Below are positions 16,554-45,811 of a stretch of 53,056 bases of DNA, piece after piece (position 1 is the first letter of the stretch; every line of letters begins with the position of its first letter). The notes beneath the pieces were generated by a model that saw only the letters and a program-made list of their open reading frames with translations, ran no database searches and was not told where the DNA came from. This DNA is from Candidatus Saccharimonadota bacterium (GTDB lineage Bacteria; Patescibacteriota; Saccharimonadia; Saccharimonadales; AQU-01). Made by a program: the position numbers and the translations under genes. The stretch is taken from assembly GCA_018499905.2 (NCBI GenBank), contig JAHBAU020000001.1, forward strand, positions 1 to 53,056, given 5' to 3'.

Positions 16554-18281
16554 ATGAATCTGCCAGATTCGTCACTTTTTGGAGGTGGGCTCACTCCTGC
16601 GACTGGCCTGCATGAGTTGTCTGTTCAAGTCGGAGAAAGTGCCGCTGCATTCGATTGGCGGGCACGTACCTACTACCCTTTCTCAAACGATATTGCTTAT
16701 CAAACAGCCGAACTGCTTGACGGCGCGAGTATCTATGATCTAGCACCAGAAGCTATGCCTGTTGTAGCTACCTCAGCCGTTGGCTGGTGTCTCGACGCTG
16801 CCAAAAAGCCGGCGATGATGATCGGGCGGGAGCTATATGAACATCCGGCTCGCGATGCAGCCGACGTTATCCAGTTCGTAACTGAGGGTGCGATTAGGCA
16901 TGTTCAAACTCTATGGCACGATCCAACTACAATTAGCGGCCCAATAGAGCTCCAACATCGATTGGTGGCACGTTCTTCGGCGCGGTTAGCTACCGCCTTA
17001 ACTTTAACTGTGTTGGATGAAGTAGTTGACGACCTGCCGACAGTAAAACCTCCCAAACTTGCCAATAAGCTTTCGGCAATTGGAAATCTTCATGCCCATT
17101 TGTGTGAAATTGCCGAAGGCGCGCGGCCAGATGTCGATCAAGTAACAGATGATTTAAACTGTCTGAGACTGTCCACGGCCAACGGCTTTTCACCTGAAGA
17201 CAGAGGTCGATACGAGGTATATGTTGGTTTACTCGAACCAGTAATCGACATGACCAGCCGGGTAAGAGACGACAGGTGGAGGAGTTTTGATTTTCTGACA
17301 ACCACGGCTGACTTTAGCCGAGCGGCAACAGACAGACTATTTGGCTTTGTGCATCGACTTGATGAGGATGAATCGGCACAGATATTGCGCGATCCGTGCC
17401 TGACATCTCAGGCAGCAGGTCACATATGTGAGCAAGCAATTGGAGATATGTCATGTCTTTTTCTAGATTCTGTCCCGGAAATCGACAGCATCATCAATAC
17501 AGGTCGGATAGATTACAGAATCACAGCAGCCGAAGCGCAGCATGAGCGTGCACTGTACGAAGTTCCTCCTAATACCGACGAATATGTTTCAAAAAGCGAA
17601 GTGCTGCATGCATATTTACCGGAAGTCCGGAAGATAGGAATTATGAAAGGTGGGTTGTTCGCCTACCATCACGAAGCAGCAGTAGTCGCTGCAACTTTGC
17701 TTGATAGTTATTATCAGGCATCGACTACTGATAGGACAGTGTTCCCCGATTTTAATGACATGATGATCGAGATTGCTCGACAAACAGGTCTACTTGTGGC
17801 GACAGAACAAGGTGCTGCAGTGGCTGAATTGTCGAGAGCACAGCGAGCTGCCACGCTCGACGGGTTGCATAAATTGTATGCCGCACAAGTAGAAAGACAA
17901 TCAACACTACAGGCCAACTGTTTTGGTGCGGACACCGCAGTATTCTTTACTAAACGAGGGGCTAGTCAGAAGGTTGCAAATCATATTTGTGAGGCATGTC
18001 CTGAAGATAAGTATGCAGACTGTTTTGAGCAAGGATTATCTGTAAAATTTGGCGTTTGGGCGGGACAGTCCGAGAAAGCTAGGCGACGTATTCGCAAGCA
18101 GCGACAACTACCGGAACCAGAACTACAAGACTTCACGAGTATCCTGCAGCCAGCAAGCGTTGCCAATGATTTTGAATTGGTCGCATTGCCCTTAGAAGCA
18201 GACGACGGTGCGTACGATCTTGATCAGCTAGACGACCAATTTAAAGGCTACCTGGACCAGTTTACCGGTAAAGCCGTTTAA
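16554..18281 (+). CDS. large protein with C-terminal WhiB-like Fe-S domain
   Basis: C-terminus NCFGADTAVFFTKRGASQKVANHICEACPEDKYADCFEQGLSVKFGVWAGQSEKARRRIRKQR: four Cys (C-x22-C-x2-C-x7-C) followed by GVWAG and RRxxRK, WhiB-like layout. Confidence 0.7.
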   Translation: MNLPDSSLFGGGLTPATGLHELSVQVGESAAAFDWRARTYYPFSNDIAYQTAELLDGASIYDLAPEAMPVVATSAVGWCLDAAKKPAMMIGRELYEHPARDAADVIQFVTEGAIRHVQTLWHDPTTISGPIELQHRLVARSSARLATALTLTVLDEVVDDLPTVKPPKLANKLSAIGNLHAHLCEIAEGARPDVDQVTDDLNCLRLSTANGFSPEDRGRYEVYVGLLEPVIDMTSRVRDDRWRSFDFLTTTADFSRAATDRLFGFVHRLDEDESAQILRDPCLTSQAAGHICEQAIGDMSCLFLDSVPEIDSIINTGRIDYRITAAEAQHERALYEVPPNTDEYVSKSEVLHAYLPEVRKIGIMKGGLFAYHHEAAVVAATLLDSYYQASTTDRTVFPDFNDMMIEIARQTGLLVATEQGAAVAELSRAQRAATLDGLHKLYAAQVERQSTLQANCFGADTAVFFTKRGASQKVANHICEACPEDKYADCFEQGLSVKFGVWAGQSEKARRRIRKQRQLPEPELQDFTSILQPASVANDFELVALPLEADDGAYDLDQLDDQFKGYLDQFTGKAV

Positions 18282-18389: not shown

Positions 18390-21300
18390 ATGAGCAATCA
18401 TCATTTGTCGAGTTTGAGCCACGCTTTTAGGCGTGATTTACGACGTATCGGAGTTCGGCTGAGACGTATTCTTTCTTTGTCACGTAGACATATCAAGCCA
18501 ATGCTAAAGATGTATCACCATATGGCTAAGCAGATGACGGTGTTCGCAGCAAAGCAAACGAAACAGTTTGTAAAGTTCTATGCCCGCTTTAGTAAGCAGC
18601 TGGCCAAACGACTCCATCATCACCTGGCTAAGCGTCCCCATGGATTTATGCTGACTAAATGGCGATGGTATGCCCGTTGGCACAGTTGGAAATACCATGC
18701 CTATGCCCATGGCGCTGTTTTGGCGATGTATGTTGTGGTTGTGTTAAGCGTCGTTATTGGTGCGTACAGGACCATGGTGCTAGCCTACGACTTGACTGAC
18801 ACTTGGGACTTTACAACGGCCAGCAATTACACCATTGACAACGGCCTCGAGACGAGCGGCGGCAGTGTGCGATTAAAAGCTCAAAATTACGCGACTGATG
18901 CAAACACCGCAGCACTATATCATCTCGATGAATCGCTGGGTACGACTGTGGACGATGCATCGGTAAATGCCAATGACGGCACCACCAGCGGTTCGCCGAC
19001 TTTTGTAACTGGCAACTTAAATAACGGCCTTGACCTTGATGGCACTGATGACTTGATTAGCGTGCCGGACAGTTCGTCACTTTCATTTACGCAATCGCAC
19101 ACGCTTGAGGCTTGGACGAAGCTCGATAGCAGTTTTAGTGCTGGCAGTCATGCCCAGCGCCAAGGTATTTTTGATAAGGGTGACTACCAGCTGTATTACG
19201 ACAACGAGACAGGGCGGCTCAGCTATGAGATTGCCAATGCAAGCGCAACAACCTGGACACAGGAAGCGGGTAATGACATAAAGAACAGCTGGGACTTGAA
19301 CGGGAACCCAAATATTGAGGCGCAAACCGTCATGGGCACTAATCTGTACGCTGGTACCGGTAACGCTACGAATGATGCCGAAGTGTGGCGTTGGAATGGC
19401 ACCAGCTGGACCCAGATAGGCGGCGATGGATTAAATGATAGCTGGCTCACGAACACTTACGAGAGTGTGCATTCACTCGCAAACGACGGCACGAACGTCT
19501 ATGTAGGCGTTGGCACGGGTACTGGCGATGCTGAAGTTTGGTCATGGAACGGCACTACCTGGACCAAAATTGGTGGCGACGCGCTCAATAGTAGCTGGGC
19601 AATAAATACCTATGAAGGTGTCTATTCCCTGCGCCATTTTGGCGGCAACTTGTATGCAGGCATAGGTAACGGAGCGAATGATGCCGAAGTTTGGCGCTGG
19701 AATGGCACTAGTTGGACGAAGATTGGTGGCGATAGCCTAAACAGTGGTTGGACGACTAACTATGAGTATGTGTATTCGCTGGCTGATGATGGCACAAATC
19801 TTTATGCCGGCTTAGGTCTGACGGCTGGCGAGGCTGAAGTCTGGCGCTGGAATGGCACCGCTTGGACCAAAATTGGCGGTGATACCGTCAACTCGAGCTG
19901 GGATAGTGCAAGCTTTGAAGTAGTGCTTAGTATGACCTTCGCGGGTGGAAATCTATATGCTGGTCTTGGAACAACTGCAGACGATGCTGAGGTCTGGTCA
20001 TGGAACGGCACTGCCTGGACCAAAATTGGCGGTGATAGTTTGAATAGTGGCTGGACAACCGGTTATGAAGGAGTGTATGGCCTTGTGAGTGATGGCACCA
20101 CAATCTACGCTGGCCTGGGTGCCACAGCTGGTGATAACGAATTATGGTCATGGAACGGCACTGCCTGGACCAAAATTGGCGGTGACGCGCTGAACAGTAG
20201 CTTTACAAATACGCACACGCTAGTGAGCTCTTTGGCATATGGCAACAGCACCTTATACGTTGGTCTAAACTCAGCAAGCGCTACCCTGTCGGCACAAGTC
20301 TGGTCTTATAGTGCGAGCACCTGGGCCAGAATTGGCGGCGACAACATCAACTTTAGCTGGGGCTCCCGAGGCTTGAGCGGAGTTAATGTGATGACCGTTT
20401 CAGGCGACAAGCTGTATGCGGGAACAGGTATTGCGACTGCGGGTACGGCACTGGTCTGGGAATATGATGGCTCTACCTGGAATTTGATTGGTGGTCAAGG
20501 TGTTAATAGTAGCTGGGCGGCCTATACGTACGAGACAATCACAACCATGATTAGCCTGGGCGGTAACTTATATGTTGGCCTTGGCACAACGGCTAATGAT
20601 GCTGAAGTCTGGCGCTGGAATGGCACGACGTGGACGCAAATTGGTGGCGACAGTCTTAATAGCGGTTGGACGACTAATTATGAAGAAGTTACCGCCATGG
20701 CCATATATAACTCTCAGCTCGTTATCGGACTAGGAAATAGTGCCAACGATGCCGAAGTCTGGCAATGGAATGGTGCTGCCTGGACCAAAATTGGCGGCGA
20801 TAGCTTAAATAGCGGCTGGACCACAAACTTTGAGCGCGTGGCAGCTATGGCAAACTACAATGGCCAGTTGTACGCCGGACTTGGTTCTAGCGCTGGAGAT
20901 GCCGAAGTGTGGCGTTGGAATGGCACTAGTTGGGCGCGTGTGGGCGGCGATGCGGTCAATTCAAGCTGGGATGCTATTAACTACGAGCATGTTGACGCAA
21001 TGATTGTCTATAACGGTCGTTTGTACGCTGGCCTTGGGACAAGCACTGGCGATGCGCAAGTTTGGGAATATAACGGCACGGCCTGGACCAAAATGGGCGG
21101 TGATGATCTGAACGATAGCTGGACTGTTGCGTTGTATGAGCGGGTGAGGACTTTGGTAGTCTATAACGGCGATTTGTATGCAGGGTTGGGCAATACTGCA
21201 GGAGATGGTGAGGTTTGGAAGTACAACGGCACAACCTGGTCGGTTGTTGCTGGTGATAGCCTAAACTCAAGCTGGACGAACGCTATTGAGGAAGTCCTGA

Positions 21301-24300
21301 GCTTTAGCCCATACAAAGGAAAACTCTACGCAGGTACAGGTAACTCTGCTAACGCCGACGGCATGGTCTGGTCGTTTGGCAATAACGGCTTTTTGCAGTC
21401 ATCTCAAACCACGTTTGATACAAACTGGCATCATGTTGCGGCTACGTATGATGGCGCGTCAATGAAATTATTTGTTGATGGCACGCAAGTCGCCACAACG
21501 TCAGTGTCGATGTTTATTCCAGATACGACACACAATTTACTCATTGGTGCTACGCAGGCTGGGCGTGAATCGGGTAAACCGTCAGGACACTTCCAGGGAC
21601 TACTGGATGAATTACGCATAAGTAATATCGCGCGCTCTAGTTTTACGACCAAACCCTACAGCGAAACAGCTCAAGCCATTACCCTCAACACTCCTGTGCA
21701 TGTCAGTGGCATATGGCACTGGGATGATTTTATTACCAACGAAACACCCAATGGCGGTACGGTGAGTTACCGATTATCTGATGACGGCGGTCTATCATGG
21801 AAGTACTGGAACGGCAGTGCCTGGGTATTGTCCAGTTCGACGGCCCAGACAAGTACCGCTGCCCAGATTGATACGAATATTCTGACCTTCCCGGCAACAT
21901 TCAGCGGAATTGTGTGGCAAGCCGTACTAGATGGTGACGGTAACCAGCGTGTGCAGCTCAACGAGGTCGAGCTCAATTCTACTTCTGATGTTGCGGCGCC
22001 TGCTACGAATGCAAGTAGTATCACGGCGCTGAAAGCCAGTGGTGGCTCTGCACTGAGCGCTGATGCGTGGACCAATGGGTCGTCACCCTATTTTGATTGG
22101 ACGGCTGGCACCGACACCGAATCGGGTATCAAAGGCTACTGTTTGTATCTTGGATCGGATGTTGGTGGTGACCCGGTATCAACCAAGGGGCTATTAGGCG
22201 TTAGTCCAGTTACCACCGGCGGAAATTGCCAGTTTATAGTTGGGACGAGCGAGATTGATCTGTCTACCGCTGGTTACATGGGCTCTCCCCTCGTCACCAG
22301 CAGTTCACGGTATTATCTTCGAATAAAAGCCATCGATAATGCCGGTAACGTGATTGGTTCAGCCGCGAGTTTTTCATTCTTTTTTGATAACACTGCCCCA
22401 ACAAATCCAGGTTTCGTTACGTCACCATCGGGCTTCATTAATACCAAAGCTGTCACTCTCACCTGGCCGACGAGCGGCGGTAGTGCAGCTAGTGATGGGC
22501 ATTCAGGACTGGCTGGCCTGCAATATAGAGTCAACAACACCACTTGGTATGGTGATGCCCATACCGGAACTGGCGACATTAACGATCTACTATCCAATGA
22601 TGGCAGCTACTCAACCGCCGATCCGCCAGATTATGACAATCTGAGTGATGGTATCAACACGATTTACTTTAGAACCTGGGACCAGGCAGGTAATGTGACA
22701 AGTTCGTTTGTTACAGCTACCGTCAAGATAAACACTGCGGGTACGCCAAGCGAACCGCAAAACGTTCAGGCCACACCGGGAACAAATACGGTTAATGCCT
22801 TTACCTTCAGCTGGGACGATCCATCATCATTTGTCGGTGACGCGAACAACTTGACCTACTGTTACACCATTAATGCTCTGCCAAATAGCACCAACTGCAC
22901 CTTTACGCCTGCAGGTGCGAATAGTCTGGGAACCGGGGCTTATGCAACTTTTCCTGGAGTAAACACGTTTTATATTGTTGCTCGTGATGAAGCAAATAAT
23001 ATTAACTACGCGACATTCTCGAGTGTGAATTTTACGGCGAATACCACTGCGCCAGGGATTCCCTTGAACGTTGATATTGTTGACGTTTCAATTAAGTCTA
23101 CGAATAATTGGCGACTCGCCCTAACATGGGATCCGCCGACAAGTGTTGGCTCAGGTGTTGCCTCGTATCGGGTATTTCGCTCGACGGATAACAGCAACTT
23201 TAGTCTCGTTGGGAGCAGTAGCAGTACGACCTATATTGATGCCGGATTGTCGCCAATAACTTACTACTATCGGGTTGCTGCTTGTGATAATACTAACAAT
23301 TGTGGTGCCAATAGTAGCGTGGTTTCGTTGCTGCCGACCGGAAGGTTTACGTCCCCCGCTTCGTTGGTATCTGATCCATTGGTGCTGAATCTGACAACCA
23401 GACGTGCAACGGTTCGTTGGAGTACCGACCGTGCCAGTGATTCCAAGATTGCCATAGGCACAACCAGTGGCTCGTATGGACCATCAGAGATTGGCAACAG
23501 TGACCAGGTGAGCGCCCATGAGATCAATCTCGATAACCTGTCAGCGGGCACAACCTACTACTTTGTGGCCAAGTGGACGGATGAAGACGGCAACACCGGA
23601 CAGAGCCCGGAACAAAGTTTTACCACCTCACCTGCCCCGACCGTTAAGGAGATTCAGCCAACAAAAGTCAGCCTTAGCGGTACGACCATTCAATTTACCT
23701 CAAAAGACTCTACCAGCGTGAAGATTTACTATGGTCCGTCAGAAAGTTTTGGCGGTGTTAAAACTTTGAACACCTCTATTTCTGAATCAAGTTATGTCTT
23801 TGACCTTTCCGGTTTAGCAGATGGCACAAAGTACTATTTCCGCCTGAGTGCGTTTGATTCTGAAGGCGGTGAGTACCAGGGCAATATTTTCTCGTTCTCG
23901 ACTCCCCCGCGTCCCAAGATTACAAATCTGCGATTCCAGCCAATTGATGGCGAGCCGACTAGTACCCAAAAAGTTACCTGGCAGACCAATGTACCGTCAT
24001 CAACCATCGTAAGTTACGGTAAAAACAACACCGTGGGAACAGAGACTCAGGACTCACAGCTGGTAACCGAACACGAAATTATAATTCGGGATCTGGAAGA
24101 TGACAGCGACTACTATCTCATGGCCCAAAGCCGAGATGCCGACGGTAATCTGGCTGTCTCGGATCGACAACAGTTCCGCACAGCACTGGATACGCGACCG
24201 CCAAAGATCACTAATATCTCCATTGAAACCGCTATTCGTGGGACCGGGGCAGAAGCTCGTGGACAGGTAATCGTGTCGTGGACGACAGACGAACCAGCCT

Positions 24301-24560
24301 CCAGTCAAATTGAGTACACAGAAGGCTCCGATGCAGTTACCTATAACAATAAGACCGCAGAGGATGCTGAGCTATCGCTAGAACACATTGTCATTGTCTC
24401 TGACCTGCCGACATCCAGAGTATATAGCCTGCGTCCGGTTTCACGTGATCGATCCCTAAATGCCGGCTTTGGTGATACACAGTCTGCGATTATTGGCAGG
24501 GCTTCCGACAGCGTCTTAACTATCATTCTCAACACACTTAAAAACGTTTTTGGACTTTAG
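18390..24560 (+). CDS. giant cell-surface protein: basic N-terminus, TM, LamG with embedded propeller repeats, multiple FN3-like domains
   Basis: TM AVLAMYVVVVLSVVIGAY; LamG halves; ~14 repeats AEVWRWNGTSWTKIGGDSLNSGW...LYAGLG; downstream FN3-like units (VTWQTNVPSSTIVSYG, VSWTTDEPASSQIEYT). Confidence 0.9.
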   Translation: MSNHHLSSLSHAFRRDLRRIGVRLRRILSLSRRHIKPMLKMYHHMAKQMTVFAAKQTKQFVKFYARFSKQLAKRLHHHLAKRPHGFMLTKWRWYARWHSWKYHAYAHGAVLAMYVVVVLSVVIGAYRTMVLAYDLTDTWDFTTASNYTIDNGLETSGGSVRLKAQNYATDANTAALYHLDESLGTTVDDASVNANDGTTSGSPTFVTGNLNNGLDLDGTDDLISVPDSSSLSFTQSHTLEAWTKLDSSFSAGSHAQRQGIFDKGDYQLYYDNETGRLSYEIANASATTWTQEAGNDIKNSWDLNGNPNIEAQTVMGTNLYAGTGNATNDAEVWRWNGTSWTQIGGDGLNDSWLTNTYESVHSLANDGTNVYVGVGTGTGDAEVWSWNGTTWTKIGGDALNSSWAINTYEGVYSLRHFGGNLYAGIGNGANDAEVWRWNGTSWTKIGGDSLNSGWTTNYEYVYSLADDGTNLYAGLGLTAGEAEVWRWNGTAWTKIGGDTVNSSWDSASFEVVLSMTFAGGNLYAGLGTTADDAEVWSWNGTAWTKIGGDSLNSGWTTGYEGVYGLVSDGTTIYAGLGATAGDNELWSWNGTAWTKIGGDALNSSFTNTHTLVSSLAYGNSTLYVGLNSASATLSAQVWSYSASTWARIGGDNINFSWGSRGLSGVNVMTVSGDKLYAGTGIATAGTALVWEYDGSTWNLIGGQGVNSSWAAYTYETITTMISLGGNLYVGLGTTANDAEVWRWNGTTWTQIGGDSLNSGWTTNYEEVTAMAIYNSQLVIGLGNSANDAEVWQWNGAAWTKIGGDSLNSGWTTNFERVAAMANYNGQLYAGLGSSAGDAEVWRWNGTSWARVGGDAVNSSWDAINYEHVDAMIVYNGRLYAGLGTSTGDAQVWEYNGTAWTKMGGDDLNDSWTVALYERVRTLVVYNGDLYAGLGNTAGDGEVWKYNGTTWSVVAGDSLNSSWTNAIEEVLSFSPYKGKLYAGTGNSANADGMVWSFGNNGFLQSSQTTFDTNWHHVAATYDGASMKLFVDGTQVATTSVSMFIPDTTHNLLIGATQAGRESGKPSGHFQGLLDELRISNIARSSFTTKPYSETAQAITLNTPVHVSGIWHWDDFITNETPNGGTVSYRLSDDGGLSWKYWNGSAWVLSSSTAQTSTAAQIDTNILTFPATFSGIVWQAVLDGDGNQRVQLNEVELNSTSDVAAPATNASSITALKASGGSALSADAWTNGSSPYFDWTAGTDTESGIKGYCLYLGSDVGGDPVSTKGLLGVSPVTTGGNCQFIVGTSEIDLSTAGYMGSPLVTSSSRYYLRIKAIDNAGNVIGSAASFSFFFDNTAPTNPGFVTSPSGFINTKAVTLTWPTSGGSAASDGHSGLAGLQYRVNNTTWYGDAHTGTGDINDLLSNDGSYSTADPPDYDNLSDGINTIYFRTWDQAGNVTSSFVTATVKINTAGTPSEPQNVQATPGTNTVNAFTFSWDDPSSFVGDANNLTYCYTINALPNSTNCTFTPAGANSLGTGAYATFPGVNTFYIVARDEANNINYATFSSVNFTANTTAPGIPLNVDIVDVSIKSTNNWRLALTWDPPTSVGSGVASYRVFRSTDNSNFSLVGSSSSTTYIDAGLSPITYYYRVAACDNTNNCGANSSVVSLLPTGRFTSPASLVSDPLVLNLTTRRATVRWSTDRASDSKIAIGTTSGSYGPSEIGNSDQVSAHEINLDNLSAGTTYYFVAKWTDEDGNTGQSPEQSFTTSPAPTVKEIQPTKVSLSGTTIQFTSKDSTSVKIYYGPSESFGGVKTLNTSISESSYVFDLSGLADGTKYYFRLSAFDSEGGEYQGNIFSFSTPPRPKITNLRFQPIDGEPTSTQKVTWQTNVPSSTIVSYGKNNTVGTETQDSQLVTEHEIIIRDLEDDSDYYLMAQSRDADGNLAVSDRQQFRTALDTRPPKITNISIETAIRGTGAEARGQVIVSWTTDEPASSQIEYTEGSDAVTYNNKTAEDAELSLEHIVIVSDLPTSRVYSLRPVSRDRSLNAGFGDTQSAIIGRASDSVLTIILNTLKNVFGL
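19246..21387 (+). repeat. ~14 in-frame ~51-aa repeats (beta-propeller-like blades)
   Basis: Repeated LYAGLGxxxxDAEVWRWNGTxWTKIGGDxLNSSW; visible at DNA level as recurring tggaatggca..tggacc/gaaaattggcggtga. Confidence 0.9.
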
Positions 24561-24561
24561 T

Positions 24562-25374
24562 ATGTCGGATTCACAAACGCCCACAAAAAAACAAGTCAAA
24601 CCGTCAATCATTGAAGCCACAGCTATCTCACAGTCATTTGGCGAAGAAGGTGTGCGTTTTATGGCACTACAAGAAGTTAGTTTCAAGATTTTGCATAATT
24701 CCTTCACTGTTGTTTATGGGCCGAGCGGTTCGGGTAAATCGACGCTGCTAAATATCCTGACTGGCTTACAGCCACCGACAACCGGCAAGATTGTATACAA
24801 CAACCAAAACATCTACGAGCTCGATTCTGACAGCCTGGCACAGTTCCGTGCGAGTCGGATTGGTATCATCTACCAGCAAAATTACTGGGTCAAGAGTTTG
24901 AGCGTGGTTGAGAATGTTGCATTACCGCTTTTCTTCCGTGGGTATAATCGGACACTCGCAAAGGAGCTGGCGCTTATAGCCCTGGAACGAGTTCGTATGC
25001 AGGATTATGCTACAAAAAACCCAACCCTATTGTCTGGTGGTGAGCAGCAGCGTGTGGCAGTGGCGAGAGCCTTGGTGAATGACCCAATGATTATTATTGC
25101 TGATGAGCCAACCGGTTCGCTGGATTCTAAGAACGGCGATTTAATTATGGATCTGCTGCATAAAGCTCAAACTGACTCGATGCGGACGATCATTCTTGTG
25201 ACACACAATATGGAGTACCTGCCATTAGCAGATCATTTGCTCCACATCCAAGACGGCAAGGTGCAAGAACTACAGGCTGCCAGTATTCGTGCAACTGTCG
25301 ATGGTTTGATGACTGATATGAAGCAACGCATCGATCGACTATCGGTCATGAACCAACGTAAGGATCACGCATGA
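24562..25374 (+). CDS. ABC transporter ATP-binding protein, MacB/LolD type
   Basis: VYGPSGSGKSTLLNILTGL, LLSGGEQQRVAVARAL, IIADEPTGSLDSKNG. Confidence 0.93.
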   Translation: MSDSQTPTKKQVKPSIIEATAISQSFGEEGVRFMALQEVSFKILHNSFTVVYGPSGSGKSTLLNILTGLQPPTTGKIVYNNQNIYELDSDSLAQFRASRIGIIYQQNYWVKSLSVVENVALPLFFRGYNRTLAKELALIALERVRMQDYATKNPTLLSGGEQQRVAVARALVNDPMIIIADEPTGSLDSKNGDLIMDLLHKAQTDSMRTIILVTHNMEYLPLADHLLHIQDGKVQELQAASIRATVDGLMTDMKQRIDRLSVMNQRKDHA

Positions 25375-26603
25375 AACTAAGATTTCCCCGCTTACCTGCT
25401 AAACTCCAGCGCAACAAGGATTCAATCGCCACTGTTACCGTCTTGTATCTGGCCTGGAAGAATCTCACGACCAAGAAGTTACGAACATTCTTGACAATTT
25501 TTGGCATCATTATCGGTATTGGCGCAATATTCTTCCTGCTGTCCTTTGGTCTTGGACTGCAGCATATCGTCACTGAAGAAGTGATTGGCAATCAGTCAAT
25601 TAAATCTATAGATATCACGTCGCCAAATTCCAAAATTCTTGCGTTGAATCAAGAGACCTTTGATCGAATCGGCAAACTACCGCACGTCGATCGTATGGGC
25701 CGCTCTTTCTCGTATCCAGGCAGCCTAAGTTATTCCGGAAGTGAGACCGACACCATAGTGTATGGCGTTGATCCAGTCTATCAAGAATTATCCAATCTGA
25801 CCGTCATTAAAGGCCGTCAGATCGCTTCCGAGGACAGTCGAGTGGCTTACTTGAATACGGCGCTACTGCAGTCTCTAGGCATCGAAAACGTTGAATCAGT
25901 ACTTGATCAGCAGATTCGGCTTTTGGTGCCTCTCGCCGCTGGCGCTGAACCTATCGCCGAGGATCTTACGGTTATTGGCATTATCGATACGGGCTCAGGC
26001 GGAGAAATTTTTGTGCCCAACCACCTCTTCGAGAGTGCTGGGCAAACATCGTACAAACAGTTCAAGTTAATTGCCGATGACACTAACAATATTACGGACC
26101 TGCGTAAACAAATAGAGAGCCTTGGTTTTTTGACAACTTCACCAGTAGATACGATTGACCAGATCAATCAAATTTTCCGGTTTTTCAACATAATCCTGGT
26201 AAGCTTTGGCGCAATTGGTATGATTGTTGCCGTACTTGGTATGTTCAATACGTTGACTATCTCCCTGCTTGAAAGAACCCGTGAAATCGGCCTCATGATT
26301 GCCCTTGGCGGTCGTCAATTTGATATGAAACGACTATTTATCATTGAGGCGGTCATGTTGTCCGTTGCCGGCGCTGTTATCGGTATGATATTGGCCACGA
26401 TCAATGGTGAAGTTATTAACATTATTATGAATCGATTAGCGCGATCACGTGGCGTACTCGAAACATTCGATCTATTTGCAACCCCATATTGGCTTGTCAT
26501 GGGCATTCTGGCTTTTATGGTCATGGTCGGACTAGCGGTGGCGTTCTTCCCGGCACGCCGAGCACAACGCATTAATCCTATCGATGCACTGCGTCGTGAA
26601 TAG
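25371..26603 (+). CDS. ABC transporter permease, MacB/FtsX type
   Basis: AWKNLTTKKLRTFLTIFGIIIGIGAIFFLLSFG N-terminus and FtsX C-terminus LLERTREIGLMIALGGRQFDMKRLFIIEA...PARRAQRINPIDALRRE; ATGA overlap with the ATPase. Confidence 0.93.
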   Translation: MKLRFPRLPAKLQRNKDSIATVTVLYLAWKNLTTKKLRTFLTIFGIIIGIGAIFFLLSFGLGLQHIVTEEVIGNQSIKSIDITSPNSKILALNQETFDRIGKLPHVDRMGRSFSYPGSLSYSGSETDTIVYGVDPVYQELSNLTVIKGRQIASEDSRVAYLNTALLQSLGIENVESVLDQQIRLLVPLAAGAEPIAEDLTVIGIIDTGSGGEIFVPNHLFESAGQTSYKQFKLIADDTNNITDLRKQIESLGFLTTSPVDTIDQINQIFRFFNIILVSFGAIGMIVAVLGMFNTLTISLLERTREIGLMIALGGRQFDMKRLFIIEAVMLSVAGAVIGMILATINGEVINIIMNRLARSRGVLETFDLFATPYWLVMGILAFMVMVGLAVAFFPARRAQRINPIDALRRE

Positions 26604-37263: not shown

Positions 37264-37578
37264 ATGGGTGCCAAAGTAAAGACAACGCAAGTCGCGCCAA
37301 GCGATAAGATTGACGACCTGTTGTTAAAGCAGGCCGCGAAAACCCAATTCTTTACATCGACTGCCAATTTGAGCTGGCGGCTGGCAATTACCATCGTGGT
37401 GCCTTTGGTTGGGGGGGTAAAGCTTGATGAAAAATTCAACTCCTCACCATCTTGGACACTTACCGGTATTTTTATAGCGGTAGCAGCCGGGTGTGCGGCC
37501 GTGTGGGCAACGGTCAAAGAGGTCAACCAAGAACAGGCTGAAACAGAAGCTCGTATTAAAAAGGGAGGATCAAACTAG
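37264..37578 (+). CDS. AtpI-like/AtpZ-like ATP synthase accessory membrane protein
   Basis: Two TM segments (WRLAITIVVPLVGGVKLDEKF..., WTLTGIFIAVAAGCAAVWATV) directly upstream of atpB. Confidence 0.7.
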   Translation: MGAKVKTTQVAPSDKIDDLLLKQAAKTQFFTSTANLSWRLAITIVVPLVGGVKLDEKFNSSPSWTLTGIFIAVAAGCAAVWATVKEVNQEQAETEARIKKGGSN

Positions 37579-38414
37579 TGCTGGGAGTTTTGTCACGATT
37601 TGCTGCCGAACCGGTCATCCACATTACGCCGCTTGAGATTTTTGAGATCAACGGTTTCTCTGTTACGAACTCGATGTTTTATGGGTTAATCTGCGCCATC
37701 TTAACTATCACTATTCTGATTACTGTCGCCCGTCGCATGACTTTGCGTCCTAGGGGTGGGCTTACTCAGTTTGTCGAGATCGGCACTGATTTTATAACTA
37801 ATTTATTAAAAAGTGCTTTAGGCAGTGAAGAAAAAGCAGTTAAATATGCGCCGTACTTTGTGTCCATCTTTTTCTTTATTATGTTTAGTAACTGGCTGGG
37901 GCTGTTGCCCGGGGTCGGCGAGGCTTTTCAATCAAACGGCGAGCCTTTGCTGCGACCATTTACTGCCGATCTTAACGGCACGTTAGCTGCAGCCATCATT
38001 ACCTGGACGTTGGTGCAGTACCTGTCGGTCAAGGAATCGGGCTTCTTACCGCATATGCGGCACTATTTTAACGGCAGCCTCAAGAATCCAATTACCTTGC
38101 TGCTTGGTATCTTTGAAATGTTTAGCGACATGACGCGCATTGCCAGCCTAGCGCTTCGGCTATTCTTGAACGTTGCTATTGGCGAAATTATTATTGCGGT
38201 CTTCTCGGCTCTGGGCGGCACCGCCGGGTTCATAACTGCCCTGCCGTTCACCATCTTAGAGCTTATGGTTGGCGCTTTGCAGGCGTATATTTTTGTCATG
38301 CTGTCCATCATGTACCTGGCGGTTGCCGTCAAGCATGCCGCCCATGATGCGCATGACGAGCCCTTAACCATAGATAGTGTTGTTGAGGCAGAAGTTGGAA
38401 AAGTAAGCAATTAA
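37578..38414 (+). CDS. atpB: F-type ATP synthase subunit a
   Basis: SLALRLFLNVAIGEIIIAVF (essential Arg helix), LMVGALQAYIFVMLSIMYLA. Confidence 0.96.
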   Translation: MLGVLSRFAAEPVIHITPLEIFEINGFSVTNSMFYGLICAILTITILITVARRMTLRPRGGLTQFVEIGTDFITNLLKSALGSEEKAVKYAPYFVSIFFFIMFSNWLGLLPGVGEAFQSNGEPLLRPFTADLNGTLAAAIITWTLVQYLSVKESGFLPHMRHYFNGSLKNPITLLLGIFEMFSDMTRIASLALRLFLNVAIGEIIIAVFSALGGTAGFITALPFTILELMVGALQAYIFVMLSIMYLAVAVKHAAHDAHDEPLTIDSVVEAEVGKVSN

Positions 38415-38441
38415 TAAGGTAAGAAAAGGAGCATAACAGCT

Positions 38442-38666
38442 ATGTTTGCAGAAACAATTAACACCGCCGTTTTAGCCAAAGGTATCATGATGGGTTTTGG
38501 TATGTTCGGTCCTGCCATCGGCATCGGCTTGATTGGTAGCGCGTTCATGAACGCCGTTGGCCGTAACCCGGAAGCATCGAAGTACCTCGGACAGGTATTG
38601 GTGATCATCGCTATCATCGAGTTGATGGCGCTGCTCGTGTTTGCCTCTGTCTTCATCATTAAATAA
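38442..38666 (+). CDS. atpE: F-type ATP synthase subunit c
   Basis: KGIMMGFGMFGPAIGIGLIGSAFMNAVGRNPEASKYLGQVLVIIAIIELMALLVF; E followed by L (no Na+-type ES/ET), suggests H+. Confidence 0.96.
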   Translation: MFAETINTAVLAKGIMMGFGMFGPAIGIGLIGSAFMNAVGRNPEASKYLGQVLVIIAIIELMALLVFASVFIIK

Positions 38667-38694
38667 CGCGTGGCGAGAATATAGGAGAGCTAGA

Positions 38695-39237
38695 ATGACG
38701 AACCTGATCTTTGCAGCCGAAGAAGCCGCTGCGTCTGATTCACCCCTGGCCGCCCTGGGCGTTGATGCCAGAAGCCTGATATTTCAGCTTTTGACCTTTG
38801 TGCTGGTTTTTTTGGTCTTGCAGCGGTTTGCTTTCAAGCCTATTAGCCGATTGCTCGCCGAACGGCGCAAGACTATTGATGAAGGTGTCCGTGCTGGTCA
38901 AGAACTGGCCAAAGAACGTGCCAAACTAGAAAAACAGTACGCCGAAACGGTCAAAGAAGCCCGACACGAAGCTGACAAAATTGTAGCAAATGCTCACAAA
39001 GAAGCTCGTGAAGTTGTGCGTGAAGCCGAAAAAACAGCTGCTCGTAAGGCCGATACCATCATTAGCGATGCCGAAGTCAAAATTGGCGAAGAAACTGCCC
39101 GTGCCAAAAAGGCGCTCGAGAAAGACATTGTATCTTTGGTATCCGAGGCTACAGAAGCATTGGTTGGCGAAAAAGTTGACCCCAAGAAGGACGCTGCCTT
39201 AATCGATAAAATTCTAAAGGGACACCTTAAGGCGTAA
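38695..39237 (+). CDS. atpF: F-type ATP synthase subunit b
   Basis: TM plus long charged coiled coil (RKTIDEGVRAGQELAKERAKLEKQYAETVKEARHEADKIVANAHKEAREV). ATG 38695 with SD aggaga; ORF-track start 38641 lies in atpE. Confidence 0.95.
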   Translation: MTNLIFAAEEAAASDSPLAALGVDARSLIFQLLTFVLVFLVLQRFAFKPISRLLAERRKTIDEGVRAGQELAKERAKLEKQYAETVKEARHEADKIVANAHKEAREVVREAEKTAARKADTIISDAEVKIGEETARAKKALEKDIVSLVSEATEALVGEKVDPKKDAALIDKILKGHLKA

Positions 39238-39244
39238 CGCACAG

Positions 39245-39646
39245 ATGAAACAGAGTCGCCATTTGCTTGCCCAGGCCGTCGCAGACAAAACGCTGCATAT
39301 CAAAGATATGAAGCAGCTGTCTCGCGAAGTTGCCGCATATCTGCTGCACGAAGGACTTGTCGATGAACTAGACTCTTTGCTGCGCGATGTGATTGCTATT
39401 CGGGCTGAGCATGGACTGGTAGAAGCCGAAGCGGTCAGCGCCCATCAATTAAGCGATGCTGATCTTAATGATGTCCGGGCAATCTTAAAGGAGTATTACC
39501 CTCACGCCAAGCAAGTGACGGTGCATCAGCGCTTGGATGCGAACCTGGTTGGTGGTATCAAACTGGTTATGCCACACCAGCAACTTGATGAATCCGTTCG
39601 GGCAAGCATCAGTAAATTTAAATCCTTAACAGCTGAAAGGGCGTAA
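39245..39646 (+). CDS. atpH: F-type ATP synthase subunit delta
   Basis: Position between atpF and atpA; C-terminal [40 protein letters not shown]. Confidence 0.9.
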
Positions 39647-39650
39647 TTTC

Positions 39651-41210
39651 ATGACACAACCCGCTATTGACGTATCAATCAAAGAATTATCAGACGACAT
39701 TCGAAGCGCAATTGCCGAGCTCAAAGTGCGCCCCGAAATCGAAAGCACTGGCGTTGTTACCCGGATTGGTGATGGTGTGGCCTGGATCTATGGCCTAACG
39801 AGCTGTGGTTATAATGAGATGCTCACTATTGAAGGCACCGGTGACGAGCACATTACAGCTTTTGCCTTTAACCTTGGAGAAGATGAAATTGGCGCGGTTA
39901 TATTGGGTGACGACACGGCAATCAAGGCCGGTGCGACTGCTCGTTTGACCGGTAAAGTACTTGAAGTCCCAGTTGGGCCGGAACTTGTGGGCCGTGTGGT
40001 CAATCCTTTAGGTCAGCCGCTTGATGGTAAAGGTGCAATTAAAGCATCAGAAACAGACCGAGTTGAGAAAGTTGCCCCTGGTGTGTTGGACCGTAAAGGT
40101 GTCCATGAACCATTGATGACAGGTATTACGGCTATCGACGCCATGGTGCCGATTGGCCGAGGCCAGCGTGAGCTATTAATTGGCGACCGACAAACCGGTA
40201 AAACCGCAATTGCCGTCGACACCATGATTAACCAACACCGACAAAATACTGGTGTCATCAACATTTATGTCGCTGTTGGCCAAAAATTAAGCAAGGTTGC
40301 CCGCTTGATTGAGCGCTTAAAGCGTGAAGGCGTCATGGATCAAACAATTGTGGTAGCGACCAGCGCCTCTGATCCGGCCAGCATGCAGTACCTTGCACCG
40401 TATGCTGGTGCGACCATGGGTGAATACTTCCGCGACCGTGGACAGCACGCGTTGATTATTTATGATGATTTGTCTAAGCACGCGGCTGCGTACCGCCAAA
40501 TGTCGCTGCTTCTGCGTCGCCCGCCGGGTCGTGAGGCCTTCCCTGGCGACGTCTTCTATCTGCACTCACGACTTTTGGAGCGCGCCGTCAAGTTGTCCGA
40601 TGAAAAAGGTGCTGGCTCACTGACTGCCCTGCCCATCATTGAAACACAGGCCGGTGACATCAGTGCCTACATTCCGACCAACGTTATTTCCATTACCGAT
40701 GGTCAGATCTTTATGGAAACTAACTTGTTTTACCAAGGTATTCGTCCGGCTATTTCGGTTGGTTTGTCGGTGTCACGTGTGGGTGGCAATGCTCAGACCA
40801 AAGCCGTTAAAAGCGTCGCGAAGAGCTTGCGTATTAACTTGGCGCAGTTCCGTGAGCTAGCAGCGTTTAGTCAATTCTCGACCGATCTCGACCCCGAAAC
40901 CCGTCACCGCATTGAACGCGGACAACGTCTGACAGAACTGCTCAAACAGCCGCAATATACACCATATAGTGTGTGGCAGATGTATGCCATTTTGCTGGCG
41001 GCCACCGAGGGCTGTTTTGATACTGTACCTCTCGATAAAATCAAAACTGCTGAAGCTAACCTATTGCGTGAACTCAAGCACGACCATCCCAAGGATATGG
41101 AAAAAGTCAATACAGGCGATGAGCCAGATGACAAGCTTCGTGAAAAGATTGTCAAAATTGCCCACAAAATTGCCGAAAGCTATAGATCTGAAGACAAAGA
41201 GACTAAATAA
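39651..41210 (+). CDS. atpA: F-type ATP synthase subunit alpha
   Basis: [81 protein letters not shown]. Confidence 0.98.
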
Positions 41211-41229
41211 GGGTGGTAAGGAGATAGGT

Positions 41230-41898
41230 ATGGCAAGCGGACCCTTTCACACAAAAGCAGACATGATCAAGGCAACACCAGTCGAGGGGCTTACAAGTGA
41301 TCAATTACCGGTTGCTGCTGCAATTGTTGTGGGTGATATTATGGCCGTGACAGATATGAGGGGCATGGGAGCACCTGAAACAGGCATACTTGATCCATCG
41401 GTAGTGCGTGTACTTGAGGTCGTTGCAAACTATCCAGAAAGGCACGCAGCCGCAGCGGCGCGAGCTGAGTATTTAGGCTATCCTTGGACACAAATTGCTC
41501 GAGATCGCAATGACCAAGTTATGACAGCATATGTTGCGGACATTGCTGATCAACCGCGGTCAGCAACAAGTCAAGTCGCTATTCCGCCGATGGATCTTGG
41601 CCACCGACCGGATTTTGTTCACACTATGGGAGAGGATGCGAGAAGATTAATTGATACCGACATGAGTGAGAGATACGAAACTCTTGCTTCTCTTGTTGCA
41701 AACAGAATTATTGAAAGGCTTCCATGTACAGGAGCATATCGTCAGGATGTCGTTAACCTTGCCGGCGAACTAGTCAGCGAGCAGTTACTCGGTTATGAGG
41801 TAGGTGTTCAGCGAGGCCTTGACATGGCAGATTTTGAGCGTCGGAGACAGCTTGAGGTTTTACAGGCAGCTATTGAGCCACAAGGAGGCGTTTACTAA
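41230..41898 (+). CDS. uncharacterised soluble protein inserted between atpA and atpG (222 aa)
   Basis: ATG 41230 preceded by SD ggtaaggag; stop 41898 and atpG ATG 41902; no recognised family. ORF-track start 40969 overlaps atpA and is rejected. Confidence 0.85.
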   Translation: MASGPFHTKADMIKATPVEGLTSDQLPVAAAIVVGDIMAVTDMRGMGAPETGILDPSVVRVLEVVANYPERHAAAAARAEYLGYPWTQIARDRNDQVMTAYVADIADQPRSATSQVAIPPMDLGHRPDFVHTMGEDARRLIDTDMSERYETLASLVANRIIERLPCTGAYRQDVVNLAGELVSEQLLGYEVGVQRGLDMADFERRRQLEVLQAAIEPQGGVY

Positions 41899-41901
41899 CC
41901 T

Positions 41902-42774
41902 ATGGCAAACACCATAACCTTAAAACGGCGTATCGGCTCGGTTAAGAATACCAAGCAGATTACCAAGGCTATGGAGCTTGTGGCTGCTAGTAAGATGCGC
42001 AAGGCCCAAGAATTTGCCGCTCAAGGCCGTGTCTACCGTCAGGCTGCTTATTCCCTTCTGACCCGTTTGAGCGCTATTACCGAAGTTAATGATCATCCAT
42101 TGTTCGTAAAGCGAACCGTCAAAACTCGGTTGTATGTCGCTATTTCCAGCAACCGCGGATTGGCTGGGGCGTACAACGCCAATATTATGCGCTTGCTGGC
42201 CAAGAGGACGCTTGAAGATCAGAAAGACCACGTTGCTACCAAAGTTATTGCCGTTGGGAAGCAGATTGCACGTTTTGCTCGGCGGCTAGAAGGCGTCGAA
42301 CTTGTGGCTGCATATGATGCGTACGATGATCATCCAACTGCTAATGATATGCGTCCCCTGCTCGACACTTTAACCAAACTGTACAGCGACAAGTCTGTTG
42401 ATGAAGTCGTGTTGCTCTATACCGACTTCAAGTCCAATATTCTACAAGTTGCAACCGATCTAAGTCTCTTGCCTGCCCGCTTTGAAGGCGAAGATTCTAG
42501 TATTGGCCAGGGACTTTCCAGTGCCACCTTTGAACCGTCAATTGAAGCAGTGCTTGATAATGTCACCGAGCGATTGCTCGAGGTGCAGCTATGGCAGACA
42601 ATGCTCGAGAGTATTGCCTCAGAACACTCTATGCGAATGCTGGCCATGAAGAATGCTACCGACAACGCAACTGACCTCATTGACGATCTAACCCTAGCCT
42701 TCAACACCGCCCGCCAAGCAGCCATTACTCAAGAACTTGCCGAAATTACCGGCGGCGCAGAGGCTATGAAATGA
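41902..42774 (+). CDS. atpG: F-type ATP synthase subunit gamma
   Basis: LKRRIGSVKNTKQITKAMELVAASKMRKAQ ... SEHSMRMLAMKNATDNATDLIDDLTLAFNTARQAAITQELAEITGGAEAM. Confidence 0.98.
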   Translation: MANTITLKRRIGSVKNTKQITKAMELVAASKMRKAQEFAAQGRVYRQAAYSLLTRLSAITEVNDHPLFVKRTVKTRLYVAISSNRGLAGAYNANIMRLLAKRTLEDQKDHVATKVIAVGKQIARFARRLEGVELVAAYDAYDDHPTANDMRPLLDTLTKLYSDKSVDEVVLLYTDFKSNILQVATDLSLLPARFEGEDSSIGQGLSSATFEPSIEAVLDNVTERLLEVQLWQTMLESIASEHSMRMLAMKNATDNATDLIDDLTLAFNTARQAAITQELAEITGGAEAMK

Positions 42775-43223
42775 CCCAAGATGCTGTAGACTTTGACCGA
42801 ATTCGTGAGCAGTTTATGTCGTACGAATTTCAGATTGTTCCTTCAGAAGTAGAGACAGAAGAATTGCATCAACGTTGGGCAGATGCGAGGGGGCACTGGA
42901 TCGACACCATGCTTGATCCGACAGCAGCTGAAGGGCTTGAGGCCAATTTTTACTCCGAGCAAGTCGATGCAACCGGACATGCTTTTGAGCAATCAATGTC
43001 GATACAAGCGGAATGCTTCAGACTACACAGAGACGAGTCGACCGAGCTGTCTGCATTTAACGCTGCCTGGAGGAATTACTTCCCTGATGAGTTATATGTC
43101 AATATTCGGAGACTGCCGCAGGCCTTCCATGCTCTTGTTGTCCAGCCGTCAGTCCATGTCCGTGATTATCAGCTGGCTATGGGCCGAGTAATGCAGGCAT
43201 CTTACGGAGTTATCAATGGGTAA
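42771..43223 (+). CDS. uncharacterised soluble protein inserted between atpG and atpD (150 aa)
   Basis: ATGA start/stop overlap with atpG; no recognised family. Confidence 0.85.
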   Translation: MTQDAVDFDRIREQFMSYEFQIVPSEVETEELHQRWADARGHWIDTMLDPTAAEGLEANFYSEQVDATGHAFEQSMSIQAECFRLHRDESTELSAFNAAWRNYFPDELYVNIRRLPQAFHALVVQPSVHVRDYQLAMGRVMQASYGVING

Positions 43224-43557
43224 TGTGAACTACCCTAAAGTTACGATTATACATGGGCCTGAGCATGGCGATATATTTCAGATTTCAGATGCCTTTGGCC
43301 TGCGTCCACCTCTTGACATTGTGAGCTTTACCGATACGTTCCCTCACGATAATCCACACGCTCCATTTGAAGCGGTCATGGGGCGTGTTATAGAAAGTGA
43401 CTATCTTCTTTTGCAATCTGACACAGCACATTTAAGCCTGTCGTTAACGGGTGGCATAGCGTCATCGTTAACTGCCCATGAAGGGTATGGCGGATACGTT
43501 GGATATTTCGATCAACAATATAATCGTGCTTCTGACCCATGGTGGCATACAAGATAG
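43216..43557 (+). CDS. second uncharacterised soluble protein between atpG and atpD (113 aa)
   Basis: Overlaps the preceding ORF by 8 nt; followed by SD aaggag and atpD. Confidence 0.8.
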   Translation: MGNVNYPKVTIIHGPEHGDIFQISDAFGLRPPLDIVSFTDTFPHDNPHAPFEAVMGRVIESDYLLLQSDTAHLSLSLTGGIASSLTAHEGYGGYVGYFDQQYNRASDPWWHTR

Positions 43558-43582
43558 TACAATAGAGATAAGGAGTATATAG

Positions 43583-44970
<1,388 letters not shown>

Positions 44971-44971
<1 letters not shown>

Positions 44972-45390
44972 TGCCAGAAGGTATTTTCCGTGACACTGGT
45001 ACACTTCACGTCGATCAAGCGTTACAGAGGTTTCATGAACGTAATCGTGGTGCAACTTGGCTAGAAGCGGGTGTCGCAGAGACCAGTCCCGATGGCAACT
45101 GGGTACTTGAAGCCGATGGCCGGGCGAGATTTGATGATATTCATCCACCTCAGACTCCATTTGGGCCAAACCCGACAGAGTTTGTCTCTGTTGCAACTGG
45201 TGTAGATGTTGCGGCCACCGACTCAGGGAGGGTTGTAATCGCAATGAACGGCATGCCAGGTATGCCTGTAATGGATACAGATACGGGTTTTGATCTCGCG
45301 GCTTACGCGGCAATGGAACCAACCGATGATGAACTGCGAGCCGCACATGTGGCTAAGATAACAGCGCAAGGATATACATTCGGTGATTAG
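44971..45390 (+). CDS. uncharacterised soluble protein inserted between atpD and atpC (139 aa)
   Basis: TAATG overlap with atpD stop; its 3' end overlaps the atpC start; no recognised family. Confidence 0.85.
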
Positions 45391-45811
45391 ACTGCAGCTT
45401 GTATCACTAGATGGACTTAAGTTTGATGATGATGTCTATGAGGTGATTTTGCCGACCATGGACGGTCAAATTGGCGTTATGCCCGGGCATATGCCATTGG
45501 TCAGCGTCGCCAGTCGCGGTGTGATTGGCGTTCGCCGTAAGGCAACCGATCGTGACGACATGATGGAATATTTTGCCATCAGCGGAGGCGCAGTCGAAGT
45601 ATCTGACAATAAATTGAGTGTATTAGTTGATGAAGCCGATGCATCAGACGAAATCAATGAACAAGAGGCTCAAAAGGCCTATGAGATGGCGCAAAAAATG
45701 AAAGCCGAAGCCAAAGACCAGGTTTCACTTGAAAAAGCCCAAAGCCTCATTGACCGCTCGAGCGTCAGATTGCAAGTAGCTGGTCTAAAACGCAGGCACC
45801 ACAGACAGTAA
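45383..45811 (+). CDS. atpC: F-type ATP synthase subunit epsilon
   Basis: VSLDGLKFDDDVYEVILPTMDGQIGVMPGHMPLVSVASRGVIGVR; GTG start within the preceding ORF. Confidence 0.95.
   Translation: MIRLQLVSLDGLKFDDDVYEVILPTMDGQIGVMPGHMPLVSVASRGVIGVRRKATDRDDMMEYFAISGGAVEVSDNKLSVLVDEADASDEINEQEAQKAYEMAQKMKAEAKDQVSLEKAQSLIDRSSVRLQVAGLKRRHHRQ

Follow-up and report, generated by a model that had tools for sequence, protein, structure and literature searches.

A probable double propeller nested in a LamG domain marks a conserved surface-protein operon in Patescibacteria

We find that an uncultured and probably host-attached Candidatus Saccharimonadota bacterium (assembly GCA_018499905.2) encodes a large surface protein whose single LamG domain is interrupted by 14 blade-like repeats, best read as two seven-bladed propellers, and that its gene lies in a conserved operon with a MacB/FtsX-type ABC transporter. 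The split LamG domain, the 14 blades and their fixed number, the exchange of heads between related proteins and the conserved gene order were established from sequence. With moderate confidence, we interpret the whole as a recognition or adhesion head, formed by the split LamG domain and the double propeller, that stands on a stalk and is encoded in a MacB/FtsX-type operon. Our searches of the literature, which covered the head, surface proteins, the transporter and split domains, did not turn up this module.

The window, which is the whole 53,056-nucleotide stretch of DNA that we analyzed, contains the protein as one open reading frame. The reading frame at 18900-21645 on the forward strand matches that quoted in the original prediction and falls within this ORF. 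Only one such gene was found in this 1.09 Mb draft genome. The relatives of this genome are mostly Saccharibacteria, and the 14-blade homologs are mostly 1924-2150 aa long. The N-terminal stretch is little conserved (mean identity 22%), while the C-terminal tail has the highest mean identity of the regions measured (66%). An AxA-like motif, which is short, follows the hydrophobic segment in 35 of 51 members and weakly suggests a cleaved signal peptide, which would place the head at the distal tip of the stalk; if the segment is instead an uncleaved anchor, the head could lie close to the membrane.

Features of the surface-protein gene and its operon in the window
Feature	Coordinates	Strand	Details
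Surface-protein gene	18390..24560	+	Single ORF, 2056 aa, predicted exported
N-terminal basic stretch (+25/-1) and hydrophobic segment (residues 108-126)	18390..18779	+	Export signal or anchor
LamG N-terminal half (residues 171-286)	18900..19247	+	PF13385 positions 1-61
Nested array of 14 blade units, starting at strand D in unit 1 and ending at strand C in unit 14	19248..21395	+	Anchors; AlphaFold pLDDT 88, residues 138-1095
Probable propeller 1 (blades 1-7)	19278..20342	+	Modelled alone as 19275-20348
Probable propeller 2 (blades 8-14)	20343..21395	+	Divergent blades 8 and 14; closing D strand probably 19248-19277 (putative pairing)
LamG C-terminal half (residues 1003-1085)	21396..21644	+	PF13385 positions 70-146, E=1.9e-17
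Linker domain, conserved	21645..21986	+	No Pfam match; mean identity 49%
Beta-sandwich stalk	21987..24479	+	fn3 and Pur_ac_phosph_N matches
C-terminal tail, conserved, amphipathic-looking (GRASDSVLTIILNTLKNVFGL)	24480..24557	+	Conserved in all stalk ORFs listed
ABC transporter ATPase	24550..25374	+	PF00005 E=1.5e-30; likely ATG start 24562
MacB/FtsX-type ABC permease	25371..26603	+	PF12704 E=4.2e-21, PF02687 E=2.5e-14

To one side of the insert, the LamG N-terminal half matched the first part of PF13385 (Laminin_G_3), although alone it scored under the curated cut-off (E=6.8e-5). When the two halves were joined, Pfam returned positions 1-146 of 151 in a single stretch (E=1.3e-23), so that the whole profile of this LamG/concanavalin A-like family is covered once and in order. 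The joined halves also aligned without interruption to the intact LamG domains of other proteins, L028 (35% identity over 201 columns, E=3e-21), L029 and L085 (28% identity over 198 columns). Since the halves are complementary parts of one profile and together align to intact LamG domains, we conclude from these comparisons that the flanking pieces are one LamG domain and not two, in line with the original prediction. That prediction located the domain correctly but began it at HTLEAWT, while the domain starts ahead of this motif, with ANTAALYH at position 18900.

Counting units in the protein by the anchor W..IGGD gave exactly 14, each of 50-52 aa except for the last, which is longer and runs into LamG. 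These values, with a measured insert of ~715 aa, bear out the predicted ~14 repeats of ~51 aa in an insert of ~714 aa. Both edge repeats are incomplete, as had been claimed, but neither is cut in half: the first lacks three strands, so that the insert starts on a D strand (the last of a blade), TTWTQEAGN, and the final repeat lacks one, ending on a C strand (the third of a blade), MVWSFGNNGFLQSS.

We searched for homologs in 393 genomes of the order (Saccharimonadales) and in GTDB contigs. Using a blade profile trained on these same homologous proteins, we found that all 30 complete arrays have 14 blades (26 proteins, including that of the window, together with L119, L123, L124 and L126); the repeat number thus shows no variation among relatives. 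Members from WWE3, Moraniibacteriota and Microgenomates, at 41-50% identity, also have 14. Deviating counts, which could have pointed to a slippage-prone adhesin of variable repeat number, came from arrays at contig ends (L061, with 13 units, L078 and L079) or, for the four units of L022/L049, from a fragment broken by unread bases. Between species, blades at the same position share 53% identity, compared to 43% between positions. The lowest-scoring blades are 1, 7, 8 and 14 (49, 43, 54 and 52 bits; the others score 62-67 bits), as would be expected if the array consists of two units, 1-7 and 8-14, each with its own edge blades. Single seven-unit arrays of the same blade type occur in two other, tail-fibre-like saccharibacterial proteins (L023 and L024), and the array of L023 ends in a GDN motif, as does the last unit of the window protein.

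Some homologs are broken into two ORFs. One (L074:8109-14162) is interrupted within the N-terminal LamG half, giving ORFs of 211 and 1788 aa with all 14 blades complete. In two others (L076:8007-14017 and L126, from genome G577), head and stalk are on separate ORFs, which overlap by 4 bases in L076; this state reflects either gene fission or an assembly frameshift.

Structure prediction supports a propeller fold. An AlphaFold model of residues 138-1095, made with 26 sequences, was all beta with four strands per unit (pLDDT 88.0, pTM 0.80), with lower certainty around blades 7-8. Blades 1-7 modelled alone gave 28 strands (pLDDT 90.9, pTM 0.92), the number expected of seven four-stranded blades, though the construct was cut to seven units and this outcome is partly by design. 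In Foldseek searches, the head best matched two-propeller proteins (GH74, OXG-RCBH, PorZ, Elp2 and AIP1), with modest TM-scores to solved structures of at most ~0.4, and the T. rangeli sialidase was also among the matches; blades 1-7 matched GH74, WD40 and kelch propellers, with TM-scores up to 0.68. The predicted propeller fold is thus supported by the all-beta models, the four strands per unit and the dominance of propellers among the matches. By sequence, the insert had no Pfam family over cut-off and no significant relative among known structures. Kelch, WD40, RCC1 and EPTP profiles in Pfam did not match the window protein, although Kelch or Rax2 matches appeared in 2-3 of 26 relatives; comparison with the EPTP protein LGI1 was not significant (E=0.2-1).

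Because the count is constant at 14, blades 1, 7, 8 and 14 are divergent and arrays of seven occur singly elsewhere, two seven-bladed propellers, as originally predicted, are the best reading of the array. The edge strands, hairpins and model confidence all agree with ring closure. Most likely, the first D strand pairs with the last C strand, closing the array as a whole. We favor this arrangement because the turn between C7 and D8 keeps an ordinary NGTSW hairpin in homologs, while the insert edges do not; for the same reason, a strand swap between blades 1 and 7 (D1 with C7) is less likely. Pairing of the first D with the last C strand would also join up both LamG connections.

Within corresponding blades, the most variable sites are the loops D-A and B-C, together with two alternating positions of strand A. 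With positions mapped from general propeller anatomy, this pattern would fit a binding face.

The stalk occurs across Patescibacteria without the propeller head, and its tail is recognizable phylum-wide. Other heads on the same stalk include DUF2341 with an intact LamG domain (L085, L088, L091 and L097), discoidin domains (L080), an RCC1 head with 13 matched repeats (L084:5367-10808) and a kelch-repeat head (L102:5907-13043). The RCC1 and kelch heads are other propeller types at the same place. A further head (L089:1-4017) has no Pfam match but reads like a formylglycine-enzyme/C-type-lectin fold, with NVWEW and GFRCAS motifs; we considered a diversity-generating retroelement for this head, but found no reverse transcriptase in that genome.

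On a tree of the stalk, four changes are required to explain where the propeller head occurs, and well supported branches make three of these unavoidable. The propeller-headed L074 is sister, with full support, to L077, whose head reads from its sequence as DUF2341-type with LamG. The head changes and this sisterhood indicate that head and stalk are separable modules. We rejected L077 as an exact empty site, as in BLAST its LamG domain resembles that of the window protein only in the C-terminal half; because the likeness is limited to this half, a replaced head is likelier in L077 than simple loss of the insert.

The two genes behind the surface-protein gene are closely packed: the likely ATPase start adjoins the surface-protein stop codon, and the permease gene overlaps the ATPase gene. 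The MacB core domain, the FtsX permease domain and the ABC ATPase all score over their Pfam cut-offs (Table), which places the transporter in the MacB type, while scores against curated MacB, Lol and FtsX models were well below cut-offs and the MacB equivalog cut-off was not reached. The ATPase is close to LolD and FtsE, and the permease, with its MacB core and FtsX domain, likewise resembles MacB/LolCDE/FtsEX-type transporters, but this transporter is tied to a large surface protein. Among 58 stalk loci with enough sequence, 54 have an ABC ATPase within 1 kb downstream on the same strand and 54 have a MacB/FtsX permease nearby; in an upstream control, ABC genes were found at 0 of 41. In three of the four exceptional loci, the stalk gene is the first member of a neighboring pair. 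At L091, L093 and L097, stalk-type surface genes stand in tandem, with one ABC gene set behind the second.

From these results, we infer how the system may work. The LamG beta-sandwich of the exported protein would form a split base, from which the chain would exit in a loop between two strands to form two seven-bladed propellers. These would project off the axis of the protein before the chain re-enters to complete LamG. The head would sit on the beta-sandwich stalk with its conserved tail and most likely binds some partner, for example a protein or glycan of another cell. The most likely target of the transporter is the surface protein, which it may export, release or control mechanically.

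We weighed three alternatives to a recognition or adhesion head. The first, which we consider unlikely but which survives best, is an envelope factor that partners the MacB-type transporter, as FtsEX partners do, in cell-wall control or protein release, with a head that is not directed at other cells. The tight linkage to ABC genes, the tail being the most conserved part and the structural neighborhood of PorZ, which is a surface component in a secretion system, all favor it. However, stalk and transporter are kept when one head is replaced by an unrelated module of the binding type, which suggests an outward-facing role, and the module is missing from most genomes. The second is an enzyme, such as a glycan-degrading head like the GH74 xyloglucanases, which consist of two seven-bladed propellers. 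Foldseek ranks GH74 and OXG-RCBH first for both the head and blades 1-7, but Pfam and NCBIfam gave no match to GH74 or any other enzyme family, most of the residues that are invariant in the blades are Gly and Trp that belong to the repeat itself, and the other heads on this stalk are binding-type domains; we regard an enzyme as improbable. Finally, two independent LamG domains around ordinary, non-closing repeats can be dismissed as highly improbable, since the two stretches returned by a whole-protein Pfam scan are complementary within one profile, joining the halves raises the score and yields an alignment to intact LamG domains, and the repeat number is constant.

A recognition or adhesion head has precedents in RTX adhesins with split domains, such as AhLap of Aeromonas hydrophila (PMC12077191) and FrhA (PMC10865825). 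They resemble the window protein in that the beta-sandwich of a long surface chain is broken by an inserted domain, which projects from it in the adhesins and probably does so here, and in that extender domains form a stalk. The RTX adhesins have a ligand-binding insert, Ig-like or beta-roll split domains and type I secretion, and belong to Gram-negative organisms, whereas the window protein has a LamG base, a 14-blade double-propeller insert and a MacB/FtsX-type neighbor, and comes from Patescibacteria. The folded insert within LamG is present, and ligand binding by it is putative. As no RTX or hemolysin-type repeats were matched by Pfam in the window protein, and as its export segment is N-terminal and hydrophobic and the neighboring transporter is of the MacB/FtsX type, not pointing to type I secretion, we rejected its identity as an RTX adhesin. 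Thus, the nested double propeller is a new form of an already known split-domain principle. By analogy with the split-domain adhesins of other bacteria, it most likely works as an exchangeable recognition or adhesion head.

Other known proteins share parts of this architecture. Sialidases and trans-sialidases combine a LamG-like lectin domain with a propeller, the lectin domain following the propeller or, as in the Vibrio cholerae enzyme, being inserted in it; here, the nesting is reversed, with the propellers inside LamG. GH74, PorZ, AIP1 and Elp2, the best Foldseek matches, also have two seven-bladed propellers per chain, but share only 10-14% identity with the window head at low TM-scores, and to our knowledge none is nested in a LamG domain. 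Among cultured Saccharibacteria, PilX2 of Nanosynbacter lyticus is a surface protein with a seven-bladed propeller and a candidate host adhesin (PMC12206443); it differs in being pilus-associated and in having RCC1 repeats and one propeller. In one cultured Saccharibacterium, surface proteins that bear glycan-binding domains are essential (PMC10633639). Because such glycan-binding surface proteins are essential and a propeller-containing pilus protein is a candidate adhesin in cultured Saccharibacteria, it is plausible that the window protein binds a host.

Elsewhere in the window, the gene upstream of the surface-protein gene (16554-18281, forward strand) encodes a 575-aa protein whose C-terminal part matches WhiB (PF02467, E=4.9e-9, residues 453-512), a GVWAG motif included. 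WhiB proteins are best known from Actinobacteria. We found no homolog beside related surface-protein genes and rejected this gene as part of the module. At 37578-45811 (forward strand), ATP synthase genes seem interleaved with small, function-unassigned ORFs (such as 42771-43223, 43216-43557 and 44971-45390).

The double propeller of ~715 residues within LamG is a large and sharply defined domain insertion, with a blade number that, unlike in many repeat adhesins, is constant across distant lineages. The conserved surface operon that it marks is the more consequential lead. The module is patchy, with stalk matches in 39 of 393 Saccharimonadales genomes and in 56 of a phylum-wide sample of 380, so that episymbiosis does not generally require it. 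We tentatively propose, as a possibility that goes beyond our main interpretation, a three-gene surface system shared by Patescibacteria, in which a stalk protein carries an exchangeable and often propeller-type N-terminal head, and its conserved C-terminal tail would be engaged by a dedicated MacB/FtsX-type transporter; the transporter may control the head mechanically, or expose or release it, when the cell meets other cells. In Patescibacteria, whose host-recognizing molecules are largely unknown, the exchangeable heads of this operon are concrete candidates for host specificity.
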